The notes below the pieces were generated by a model. The model did no database searches and was not told the origin of the DNA. It saw only the letters and a list, made by a program, of their open reading frames with translations. A stretch of DNA of 64,000 nt from NCBI GenBank assembly GCA_002707645.1, contig PANN01000014.1:67338-131337 (forward strand), read 5' to 3'. The translations under genes and the position numbers were made by a program. This document shows, piece after piece, positions 8,457 to 62,862 of the stretch. Numbering within the stretch: position 1 is the stretch's first letter; each line of letters begins with the position of its first letter. Source of the DNA: Fidelibacterota bacterium. GTDB lineage: Bacteria > Fidelibacterota > Marinisomatia > SCGC-AAA003-L08 > D37C17.

Positions 8457-9266
8457 TTGAAAAATCCATCAGAATTTTTAACCTTTGCTATAGTTATAGC
8501 TAAGGAAGCAGGTAAGATTCAAATGGAATATTTTGGTAAAATTACCGCTTTTAAAAAAAAATCCACGAATATTGATTTGGTTACCAATGCAGATATAGAA
8601 TCTGAAAAATATATAATAAATCAAATTACTAGAAAATATCCAAATCATTCAATACTAGCAGAAGAGTCTGGGGATACTTTTAATGAAAGTGAATATCTGT
8701 GGGTTATTGATCCACTTGATGGAACTACTAATTTTACACACAATCTCCCTATATTTTCTGTATCTATTGGATTAGTTAAGAAAAAGATAGGAACAGTTTG
8801 CGCAGTAGTATTTAATCCCTCTGCAGATAAATGCTTTTATGCTGAATATAAAAAGGGATCATTTTTAAATAATAAGCCTATCAAATGCACATCAAATAAT
8901 ACTTTAAGTGATTCTCTTTTAGTTACAGGCTTTCCATATTTACATGATATAAAATATGATTTATCATTTGAAATTTTTAAGGAATTTTACGATAAAACAA
9001 GAGGACTAAGAAGACTTGGCTCAGCTTCTTTAGACTTATGTTTTGTAGCAATGGGAAGATTTGACGGATATTATGAATTTGGATTAAAACCCTGGGATAT
9101 ATGCGCGGGCTCATTAATTGCCACTGAAGCAGGTGCTAAAGTCACAGATTGGGATAATTCTAAACTCCCTTTTGATGGATCTAGAATTATTGCAACAAAT
9201 GGATATATTCACAGTAAAATGACAGATATTTTAAGTAAAGAGAAGTATAAAAAAATTTTTAAATAG
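8457..9266 (+). CDS. suhB: Inositol monophosphatase family protein (TTG start)
   Basis: 'ADIESEKYIINQI', 'ILAEESG', 'WVIDPLDGTTNFTHNLPIFSVSIGL', 'KPWDICAGSLIATEAGA'. Confidence 0.9.
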   Translation: MKNPSEFLTFAIVIAKEAGKIQMEYFGKITAFKKKSTNIDLVTNADIESEKYIINQITRKYPNHSILAEESGDTFNESEYLWVIDPLDGTTNFTHNLPIFSVSIGLVKKKIGTVCAVVFNPSADKCFYAEYKKGSFLNNKPIKCTSNNTLSDSLLVTGFPYLHDIKYDLSFEIFKEFYDKTRGLRRLGSASLDLCFVAMGRFDGYYEFGLKPWDICAGSLIATEAGAKVTDWDNSKLPFDGSRIIATNGYIHSKMTDILSKEKYKKIFK

Positions 9267-10380
9267 AATTTTTAAACATTTCTACATTAGTACTAATCAA
9301 ATCTTTAAAACTTTTATTTTTATTATACAACTTTATCTGCTCTTTATAATATGAATGCCGTCTGTCAATCCTGGATATTATTCTATCCATTGATTCATAT
9401 ATTTTAAGATTATTAATTTCTGGTTCTAGTGCAAAAATTGTATTTTTAATAACCGTTGTAATATCTTCTTGATTTCCATCTGAATCTAGTATGAGTTTTG
9501 CATCTATGCCGTATCGAGTTGCTCTCCATTTATTTTCGTGAATTATCCAAGTATCCAAATATGGTAACTGAGTCCCATTTTCATAATGTTTACATAAGCC
9601 TACAACTAAAGCTTGTATTAATGCTGCTAAATCTTGAATGACTTCTAAATCTGGAATACTATCACATACTCTTATTTCAACTGTACCATACCCTGGATGT
9701 GGTCTAACATCCCACCATATTTCTCTAATTGATTCTATAGAATTTGCTTGAATAAGCGTTCTCATTAATTTTTGAAATTCACTATAATTAGTTAAATCTA
9801 TTGGAATTCCTGTGTTAGGTAAACTTTGAAAAATTTTCGTTCTTGTTGATGAAAGACCTGTCTCTTCTCCTTCAAAATATGGTGAATTAGCTGATAATGC
9901 AATTAAATACGGGATATATCTTCTCATACCATTTACTACTGCAATAGCCATTTCTCCTGTATTTACTCCTACATGCACATGAATCCCAGTGATTAGCAAT
10001 CTTCTTAAAGGCCACTGCATTCTATCTAAGAATTCTAAGTATCTTTTATTTTCCGTAACTGACTGCTCAGAAACTCTTGAAAAAGGATGTATAGGCATCG
10101 ATAATAGATGAATATCATTATTTTCTGAATAATTTATTGCCTCATTAATTTTTGGAGCTATATCATCTATTAACTCTTTTGGATGACTACATACATCTGT
10201 TGTTATTTCAATTATGCACTGCAATAACTCTTCTTTAAAAAAACTATTATCCTTAAAATGTTTTAATATTTCAGGAGCACCATTTGTTAGTCCTAAGCTG
10301 TTTTTGTCAATTGTAAATAATTCTAATTCCAGACCTAAAGTTGGCTTTGATGATCCGCTAAATATTGTTTTGTTTATCAA
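9259..10380 (-). CDS. Glutamate-cysteine ligase-like carboxylate-amine ligase (YbdK/GCS2 family)
   Basis: 'LGLELELFTID', 'ITGIHVHVGV', 'WWDVRPHPGYGTVEIRVCDSIPD'. Confidence 0.85.
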   Translation of the reverse strand: MINKTIFSGSSKPTLGLELELFTIDKNSLGLTNGAPEILKHFKDNSFFKEELLQCIIEITTDVCSHPKELIDDIAPKINEAINYSENNDIHLLSMPIHPFSRVSEQSVTENKRYLEFLDRMQWPLRRLLITGIHVHVGVNTGEMAIAVVNGMRRYIPYLIALSANSPYFEGEETGLSSTRTKIFQSLPNTGIPIDLTNYSEFQKLMRTLIQANSIESIREIWWDVRPHPGYGTVEIRVCDSIPDLEVIQDLAALIQALVVGLCKHYENGTQLPYLDTWIIHENKWRATRYGIDAKLILDSDGNQEDITTVIKNTIFALEPEINNLKIYESMDRIISRIDRRHSYYKEQIKLYNKNKSFKDLISTNVEMFKNSI

Positions 10381-59669: not shown

Positions 59670-60891
59670 ATCAAATTTATATGATGCAATAATAGTTGGA
59701 GGTGGTCCTGCGGGGTCTTGTGCTGCATTATATGCAAACAAAATCGGTCTTAAAACAATTATTTTGGAAAAATCACGATTTCCCAGGGATAAAGTGTGCG
59801 GAGATGCTCTTTCAGGAAAAGTTGTGCGATATATGAAAGAATTAGAGATTTTAAATGAGGTGAGTAAACTAGAAGGATCAACTATTAATACAATTACATT
59901 TGGCAGTCCTAACCATAAACAATTTAATGTTTATTTAACAAATAGATACAATAAGAATATAATTAAAGAAGGATACGCAATAAAACGTAGTATTTTTGAT
60001 AATTTTTTATTTAATAAAGCTAATCAACTAACAGATACTAAATTAGGATTTAAGGTAAACAAAATTTTATATAATAATAAAAAAATTATAGGAGTTGAAG
60101 GATTAAATAATAATAATAATAAAGAAAAAATCTATGCTCCTATTATCCTAGGGTGTGATGGAGCAAATTCTACAATTGCTAAAAAATTAGGCCTATACAC
60201 CGATCTTCAGAAAAATTCAGCCATGGCAATACGATGCTATTATAAAAATGTAAAGAATTTAAAAAATCAAATTGAACTTCACTTTGTTGATGAAGTTTTA
60301 CCCGGATATTTTTGGCTTTTCCCAGTTGGTAAAAACACTGCAAATATTGGTATTGGTTTAAGTAAAGAACAAGCAAAAAAAGATACCCGGAAGCTTTCAA
60401 CTATTTTAGATGATGTAACAAATTCAAATTTTTTTAGAAAAAGATTTAAAGATTCAAAAAAAATAGATAGTCCGAAAAGTTGGGTTTTGCCATTAGGACG
60501 AGTAAAAAGAATTAATTATGGAGATGGCTTTATGCTTTTAGGTGATGCTGCTGGATTAATTGACCCTTTTACGGGAGAAGGCATTGGAAATGCAATGGCA
60601 TCAGCAAAATTTGCAATCAAAATTGCATCTAAATGTTTAGAAAAAAATGATTTCTCTTCAAAATTAACTTCCGAATACAATAAAATTCTATGGACAAAAT
60701 TAGGCTCAGAGCTTAAAACTAGCTCCAGACTTCAAGATTTAGCAAATTATAGAGTTCTTCTTAATTTTGTAATGGGTAAAGCATCATCAAATAAAAATGT
60801 GCAGGATATAATAAGCGGCATGTTAGCAAAAGAAATACCTAAAGAAAGATTGACCAACCCTCTTTTTTATTTAAAAATTTTATTATCTTAA
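59656..60891 (+). CDS. Geranylgeranyl reductase-family FAD-dependent oxidoreductase
   Basis: 'YDAIIVGGGPAGSCAALYANKIGLKTIILEKSRFPRDKVCGDALSG', 'MLLGDAAGLIDPFTGEGIGNAMASAKFA'. ATG at 59656 preferred over TTG at 59644. Confidence 0.9.
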   Translation: MNGNKSNLYDAIIVGGGPAGSCAALYANKIGLKTIILEKSRFPRDKVCGDALSGKVVRYMKELEILNEVSKLEGSTINTITFGSPNHKQFNVYLTNRYNKNIIKEGYAIKRSIFDNFLFNKANQLTDTKLGFKVNKILYNNKKIIGVEGLNNNNNKEKIYAPIILGCDGANSTIAKKLGLYTDLQKNSAMAIRCYYKNVKNLKNQIELHFVDEVLPGYFWLFPVGKNTANIGIGLSKEQAKKDTRKLSTILDDVTNSNFFRKRFKDSKKIDSPKSWVLPLGRVKRINYGDGFMLLGDAAGLIDPFTGEGIGNAMASAKFAIKIASKCLEKNDFSSKLTSEYNKILWTKLGSELKTSSRLQDLANYRVLLNFVMGKASSNKNVQDIISGMLAKEIPKERLTNPLFYLKILLS

Positions 60892-60895
60892 ATAT

Positions 60896-61496
60896 CTATT
60901 TCTTATTTTTAATCATAACATCTATAAATAATTTAGATGATGAAATCTGCTCATACCAATAAACGAGTTTTTCATAGTTTTTACTAAACCATTCATAATC
61001 AACATTTGCAAACTGTCTTACAAATGGAAAAATTGCAACATCTGCGATAGAGATACTATCTTTAAAAAAATATTTTGTATTATTTAAGTTTTGTTCATAA
61101 TCCAATAATATATGATTACACTTACTTCTGTAGTAATCTTTTGAAAACTGGGGATATCTATCAGAGTACTTATACTTATCTAGCCACTTCTTGAAAAAAA
61201 AAATCATTTTTATTAATTAAATCAATTTCACTATTACCATCAACAGATATCCATGTTTGATTTTTATTATTTCTTAGTGCCCATAACATGATTTCTAAAC
61301 TTTCATCTATCACTTCACCTTTTTTATTAATTAGTACTGGCACAGTACCTTTTTTTGAAGCTTTATAAAGCTCTTCTGGTCTATTTTTAAGAGAAATTTC
61401 TATTATTTCTACTTGTATTTTTGAATATAGAAGTGCCATCCTAGCACGGATTGCGTATGGTCAGCGCCTATAAGAGAATAGAAGATGATTTTTCAA
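60896..61496 (-). CDS. Glutathione S-transferase-like protein, candidate selenoprotein (in-frame TGA at the Cys position); second half displaced by a T10 homopolymer frameshift
   Basis: Conceptual product: (M)KNHLLFSYRR[U]PYAIRARMALLYSKIQVEIIEISLKNRPEELYKASKKGTVPVLINKKGEVIDESLEIMLWALRNNKNQTWISVDGNSEIDLINKNDFFF//KKWLDKYKYSDRYPQFSKDYYRSKCNHILLDYEQNLNNTKYFFKDSISIADVAIFPFVRQFANVDYEWFSKNYEKLVYWYEQISSSKLFIDVMIKNKK. TGA at 61461-61463; indel run at 61194-61203. Confidence 0.75.
61433..61454 (-). promoter_or_regulatory. Candidate bacterial SECIS hairpin immediately 3' of the in-frame TGA
   Basis: mRNA-sense TGA-CCATACGCAATCCGTGCTAGGATGGCACTTC can form GUGC(U)-AGGAU-(G)GCAC, or alternatively GCaAUCC-GUGCUA-GGAUgGC. 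17/31 GC in an otherwise strongly AT-rich region. Confidence 0.5.
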
Positions 61497-61500
61497 AATT

Positions 61501-62862
61501 TTAACAATTATTAACTACTACTGTTTTCATATTAACAAATTCTCTAATTCCATATTTTGATAATTCGATACCATAACCAGATTTTTTAACTCCTCCAAAC
61601 GGTAATCTTGGATCAGATTTTGTCATATCATTTATGAAAACTGCACCAGTTTCTATTTTATTAGCTATTTTTTTACCATTTTCTGTATTAGAAGTCCAAA
61701 CACTTCCACCCAATCCATAATCACTATTATTTGCTAATCTAATAGCTTCTTCAACACTCTTTATTCTTGTAACACAAAATATTGGACCAAAAGTCTCATA
61801 ATTAAAAACATCCATTTTTTCATTAACATTAATAAGTAGAGTGGGATAATAATAAGAATCTTTCTTTTTACCACCACATATACACTTGGCACCCTTTTTA
61901 ATTGAAGATTGAACTAAACGATCTATTTCATCAATAAATTCGATTTTTGCTAAAGGTCCTATTTGAGTTTCATCTAATAGTGGATCACCTACTTTTAGGT
62001 TCTTAATTAAACTTTCTACTTTTGCAACAAAACTATCATGAATTTTATCATGAATCAAAAATCTTTTTGCTGCAATACAGCTTTGGCCGGTATTAAGGAA
62101 TCTTGCAGCGACAGCTGTTTTGGCTGCTTTTTGTATATCAGCATCTTCTAAAACAATAAAACAATCTGATCCACCTAATTCTAAAACAGTTTTTTTTATT
62201 TCTTTTCCTGCTTGCATTGCTACTTGAGAACCAGCATATTCACTTCCTGTTAATGTTACAGCTTTAACTGCATTATTGGAAATAACACTTGCTACCTGTG
62301 ATGAGGAAATTAGAAGTGTCTTAAAAACATTTGGATAAGGACAACATTCTTTAATTAATTTTTCAATTAATAATGCACAACCGCTAACATTTGAAGCATG
62401 TTTTAAAATACAAACATTACCAGCCATCAAAGATGGAGCAATAAACCTAAATACTTGCCAATAGGGAAAATTCCATGGCATAATACCAAATACAATTCCT
62501 ATTGGATCGTATTGAATAAAACTTTCTGAAAAATCTGATTCGATATACTCATTTTTTAAAAAGTTTTCAGCATTTAACGCATAATATTCTAAAACCCATA
62601 CACTTTTTAATACTTCTAATTTTGATTCAGCTATAGGCTTACCCATTTCAAGTGAAATCATTTTTGAATGGATATTAATTTCTAATTTCAATTTATTTGC
62701 AACAGATAATAAAAAATCTTTTCGTTTATTAAATGATAAATTTTTCCAAAAGGAAAAAGCTACAGATACATCTTCTAATATTAAATTAGTTTTTTCTTCT
62801 GAAAATGTTTCATATTCATTTATTAATTTACGTGTAAAAGGATTTATTGATTTTAATTTCAT
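61501..62862 (-). CDS. Succinate-semialdehyde dehydrogenase-like aldehyde dehydrogenase
   Basis: 'PIGIVFGIMPWNFPYWQVFRFIAPSLMAGN', 'VTLTGSEYAGSQVAMQAGKEIKKTVLELGGSDCFIVLEDAD', 'FLNTGQSCIAAKRFL'. Confidence 0.9.
   Translation of the reverse strand: MKLKSINPFTRKLINEYETFSEEKTNLILEDVSVAFSFWKNLSFNKRKDFLLSVANKLKLEINIHSKMISLEMGKPIAESKLEVLKSVWVLEYYALNAENFLKNEYIESDFSESFIQYDPIGIVFGIMPWNFPYWQVFRFIAPSLMAGNVCILKHASNVSGCALLIEKLIKECCPYPNVFKTLLISSSQVASVISNNAVKAVTLTGSEYAGSQVAMQAGKEIKKTVLELGGSDCFIVLEDADIQKAAKTAVAARFLNTGQSCIAAKRFLIHDKIHDSFVAKVESLIKNLKVGDPLLDETQIGPLAKIEFIDEIDRLVQSSIKKGAKCICGGKKKDSYYYPTLLINVNEKMDVFNYETFGPIFCVTRIKSVEEAIRLANNSDYGLGGSVWTSNTENGKKIANKIETGAVFINDMTKSDPRLPFGGVKKSGYGIELSKYGIREFVNMKTVVVNNC

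Follow-up and report, generated by a model that had tools for sequence, protein, structure and literature searches.

A probable selenocysteine-encoding family of glutathione S-transferase-like proteins in SAR406 bacteria, with a frameshifted member

The stop codon interrupting a gene for a glutathione S-transferase (GST)-like protein in a Fidelibacterota genome is, judging from comparison with related sequences, almost certainly read as selenocysteine (Sec) at the active site. The gene, located in a 64,000-nucleotide stretch of DNA analyzed here as a whole (the window), very probably represents a SAR406 (Candidatus Neomarinimicrobiota) family of GST-fold oxidoreductases with a Sec nucleophile, decoded by SelB and tRNA-Sec under the guidance of a SECIS hairpin; the copy in the window is frameshifted, and its activity is putative. 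In the proposed mechanism, SelB and tRNA-Sec would decode the UGA, the hairpin starting 13 nt past the UGA and carrying GG in its loop would guide this decoding, and Sec would replace the catalytic Cys of omega-class/GrxB-like GSTs. Sec coding, SECIS conservation, the Sec machinery, and the GST fold were derived from sequence comparison; the chemistry and the thiol used are what we infer.

The gene lies on the minus strand, with the stop codon of an aldehyde dehydrogenase gene (61501-61503) 4 nt upstream of its TTG start (Table 1); in most orthologs, ATG occupies this position or one close by. Read from the TTG, the first frame gives LKNHLLFSYRR-TGA-PYAIRARMALLYSK, and the second frame carries on the GST homology as WLDKYKYSDRYP. 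The motif around the TGA, SYRR-U-PYAIRARMAL, puts this codon in the catalytic-Cys column of omega/GrxB-like GSTs, in agreement with the preliminary description, which had placed the TGA where the motif Cys is expected. The GC-rich character (~55%) attributed there to the 31 nt from the TGA onward is also borne out (54.8%, vs 27.0% for the gene), and the codons CGT and AGG, regarded as rare-looking, each account for only a minority of the 461 Arg codons here (25 and 47, respectively). The claim of unbroken homology on both sides of the TGA, however, holds only around that codon, because the frame breaks again at a run of ten T, a +1 frameshift that divides the assembled gene in two and was absent from the earlier account.

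Table 1. Features of the Sec-GST-like locus (window coordinates)
Feature	Position	Strand	Remarks
Whole Sec-GST-like gene	60896..61496	-	TTG start, in-frame TGA, T10 frameshift, TAG closing second frame; homology to 13 ortholog loci
TTG start	61494-61496	-	Sole in-frame start codon 5' of TGA
In-frame TGA, predicted Sec codon	61461-61463	-	Catalytic-Cys column
Predicted SECIS hairpin GUGCU-AGGAU-GGCAC	61433-61447	-	Five pairs, start 13 nt past UGA; covariation in Sec genes
AGG codon providing loop GG	61440..61442	-	Present in 18/18 distinct Sec contexts
First frame past TGA, GST N-terminal domain	61176..61460	-	Out of register beyond T10; TAA at 61176-61178
T10 run, +1 frameshift	61194-61203	-	Long T run absent from orthologs here
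Second frame, GST C-terminal domain	60896..61193	-	ORF 60896-61207

Orthologs were sought in 41 genomes of the order and, in a wider search, in 245 genomes of the phylum. Within the order, 13 other genomes encode an ortholog; nine of these have TGA in this column, three have Cys, and one has an N-containing codon. The last of these (L025 in genome G013) has many N letters, TGN as the key codon, and a broken frame, and is therefore silent on the choice between Sec and Cys. Across the phylum, ten further TGA forms were identified, in group f16 and in one f18 genome, and the Cys forms sit mainly in f18 and f20. Altogether, 19 other genomes have TGA at this column and no other stop in common. Among the best 80 loci from a scan of named genomes, three had TGA, all of them from Candidatus Neomarinimicrobiota, a result that gives no ground for absence of Sec forms elsewhere, as the scan used two patterns, one of which contained Cys. 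On a maximum-likelihood tree inferred after masking of the Sec column, six changes of the Sec/Cys state are required, at least four of which are forced by well-supported branches. The gene in the window's genome (G000) clusters with the Sec forms of G012 and G015 (support 100/92), and the Cys form of G001 and the Sec form of G003 are close sisters. An in-frame TGA thus alternates with Cys among homologs at a conserved-Cys column, and insertion of Sec at UGA is well supported for the SAR406 GST-like family.

Comparison of the sequences following the codon points in the same direction. With the T of TGA as the starting point of the count, the stem was defined as columns 17-21 pairing with columns 27-31, its five pairs enclosing an AGGNU loop. 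In a set of 16 distinct sequences with Sec, pairing holds in 97.5% of cells, three of the five pairs show changes on both sides, and covariation scores 0.517, compared with a mean of 0.248 after shuffling; all slid versions score far lower. Pair 18-30, which occurs as U-A, C-G, and A-U, links the third base of an Arg codon to that of an Ala codon; the compensatory changes in the hairpin fall partly at synonymous positions. In 21 Cys sequences of the phylum, the stem columns pair no better than shuffled ones (72.4% vs 71.3%). AGG serves as the loop Arg codon in 18 of 18 Sec contexts vs 4 of 22 Cys contexts (Fisher P = 7e-8), and 17 of 18 vs 4 of 22 have all of the inner four pairs (P = 1e-6), P values that overstate the evidence because related sequences are treated as independent, with the contrast between Sec and Cys forms nevertheless remaining large. 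At the family level, the element is a hairpin just past the UGA, with conserved pairing and a small, G-containing apical loop, as in a SECIS. The preliminary description had proposed looking for homologs with TGA/Cys alternation and conserved pairing; both exist, with compensatory changes in the stem.

The hairpin that it had drawn in this gene is present and conserved in the family, but the fold z-score of the G000 sequence alone is not significant (-0.75), and a single-sequence fold was rejected as proof of a SECIS on that account. As judged from these sequences, the significance of the hairpin comes from the comparison with relatives, the G000 signal alone being weak. The predicted minimum-energy fold of G000 is a competing AUCC/GGAU helix (-7.4 vs -5.8 kcal/mol for the hairpin), and all five pairs together with AGG are found in 2.6% of synonymous recodings of the same peptide. 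When only nt 15-33 are folded, mimicking a ribosome positioned over the UGA, the conserved hairpin forms. A hairpin that by itself is unremarkable in G000, in a gene with a second lesion, would be expected if a Cys GST gene had suffered a plain nonsense mutation, or had been misread in sequencing, and the hairpin had arisen by chance. Such an origin is exceedingly improbable given the covarying hairpins, the Sec machinery, and the 19 other genomes that carry TGA in this column and share no other stop; at the family level it is refuted.

This machinery, which the preliminary description had singled out for a genome search, was found in full. The window's assembly (1.20 Mb in 27 contigs, 79% complete) contains tRNA-Sec (63.7 bits, cut-off 47; also called as tRNA-Sec by ARAGORN), selB (363.9 bits), an adjoining selA (513.8 bits), and selD (357.3 bits), that is, the complete set expected of a selenoprotein-producing bacterium in one genome. 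The selD gene (L172, G000:C4:11484-12404) encodes a selenoprotein in its turn (SSGAGUACKLS): a single TGA falls within its active site (GAGUACK), and a possible hairpin, AUCU-GCUAA-AGAU, lies past this UGA. Across the 41 genomes of the order, mostly incomplete assemblies, tRNA-Sec and selB each scored over the cut-off in 31 and selA and selD each in 34. Whereas orphan selD alone has been listed for some single-cell genomes of SAR406 (PMC5029168), the lineage is seen here with a complete Sec pathway.

The presence of an in-frame TGA in both the GST-like gene and selD could also be explained if TGA were decoded as Cys or another residue rather than Sec, through a changed code or a suppressor tRNA. 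We give this explanation hardly any credence: all Sec components are present in the genome, the SECIS-type hairpin is specific to TGA genes, and TGA closes 11 of the 51 open frames of >=150 codons in the window, which shows the genetic code to be standard. Local recoding had been argued previously from the normal use of TGA as a stop elsewhere, and this ordinary use in the window rules out a changed genetic code. Seven further in-frame TGA read-throughs are open in the window; by eye, these resemble unconstrained frames.

The working state of the G000 copy is uncertain because the frameshift interrupts the gene. Twelve orthologs cross the T10 region in one frame, without a long T run. We consider the frameshift about as likely to be an error of assembly or sequencing as a genuine, recent lesion; expression rescued by slippage is a less favored option. 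We lean somewhat against, but take seriously, the possibility that the family is a genuine Sec-GST and the G000 copy a recent pseudogene, in which the TGA would be Sec by descent but no longer productive. Decay of this kind would fit a frameshift that orthologs do not share, the TTG instead of ATG, the competing RNA fold, and the absence of the gene from this site in G007, G008, and G009. Against it, there is only a single lesion, which falls in a homopolymer within a draft assembly; both gene halves have dN/dS well under 1 (0.19-0.35); and the Sec codon, AGG loop, and stem are all kept, features that are also compatible with decay because a recent lesion would leave such traces too. An active, doubly recoded gene, in which UGA would be read as Sec close to the 5' end and the frame restored at T10 by transcriptional slippage or ribosomal frameshifting to yield a Se-dependent GST using a non-glutathione thiol, seems unlikely.

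No conserved gene neighborhood was seen, the flanking genes varying among genomes. In G007, G008, and G009 (L178-L180; window 60891-61503), the aldehyde dehydrogenase gene directly adjoins a geranylgeranyl-reductase-like gene with no GST between them, so that the GST was either lost in these three sister species or gained in G000. A phage or viral origin was set aside: no phage match was found for the gene, and the one viral-contig hit is distant, a relative with 44% identity located on a contig filed as viral (L189, IMGVR_UViG_2556921622_000001, 2001-2603).

All 13 aligned family members match GST_N families of Pfam and 11-12 of the 13 match GST_C families. The AlphaFold2 model of the G012 ortholog (mean pLDDT 93) has omega-class GSTs as its top PDB matches, with TM-scores of ~0.7-0.8, and the best solved relative by sequence is human GSTO1, in which the Cys of RFCPFAERTR aligns to the Sec column. 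In omega GSTs, the motif Cys is the nucleophile, and thiol-exchange chemistry would therefore be expected of the Sec enzyme. By analogy, the protein most likely functions as a thiol transferase or a thiol-dependent reductase and not as a conjugating GST of the Ser/Tyr type. Glutathione synthetase (gshB, TIGR01380) scored over the cut-off in none of the 41 genomes of the order, and the name GST may thus mislead as to the substrate. YbdK-type GCS2 ligases are encoded in 39 of the 41 genomes, with one or two copies each, and the window itself contains such a carboxylate-amine ligase (9259-10380, minus strand); another ATP-grasp enzyme could stand in for gshB.

Selenoproteins of this kind have been known since 2005, when GST was one of 15 new selenoprotein families in the Sargasso Sea study, with 4 sequences (Zhang et al. 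2005, PMC1088965); GST-like selenoproteins were then described in GOS data (12 sequences; 2008, PMC2398784) and are covered by reviews (COG0625 / PF13409; PMC9312934, PMC13188914). The suspicion that the family had already been reported was thus correct, and the view that the SAR406 gene adds to a known kind is well supported. Our literature search found no paper linking the GST-like selenoprotein family to SAR406. What the present comparison adds is the spread of the family through SAR406, the repeated switching between Sec and Cys, and hosts without a recognizable glutathione synthetase; a selenoprotein family first met in environmental reads can thereby be assigned to organisms. Since standard gene calling cuts at UGA, the family is likely misannotated across SAR406 genomes. 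The closely related Sec and Cys forms of G003 and G001 offer a useful sister pair for comparing the two catalytic residues.

The published GST-like selenoproteins, with PPR62222.1 and MEK9676863.1 as representatives, share with the SAR406 family their occurrence in marine microbes, TGA-encoded Sec, a bacterial SECIS, and widespread Cys homologs, a likeness drawn from their description and from GST-fold/COG0625-type domains with Sec, not from subfamily sequence. Omega-class GSTs, such as human GSTO1 and GSTO2, are similar in fold, in the place of the catalytic residue, and in the SxRxCP-type motif, but show ~20% identity to the bacterial proteins, in which Sec would stand for Cys. Glutaredoxin 2 (GrxB) also has the GST fold, and its HMM partially matches all 13 members; identity with GrxB was rejected because the NCBIfam equivalog cut-offs are not reached (49.7 vs 133 bits and 43.3 vs 186.65 bits for member 1). 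Close relatives among the matches listed, with ~45-54% identity, are the Cys GSTs of Pseudomonadota (Pseudomonas, Legionella, Shewanella, and others) with an RRCPYAxRAR motif; each relative read has Cys at this motif, and, unlike in the Sec family, the loop codon and the stem are unconstrained.
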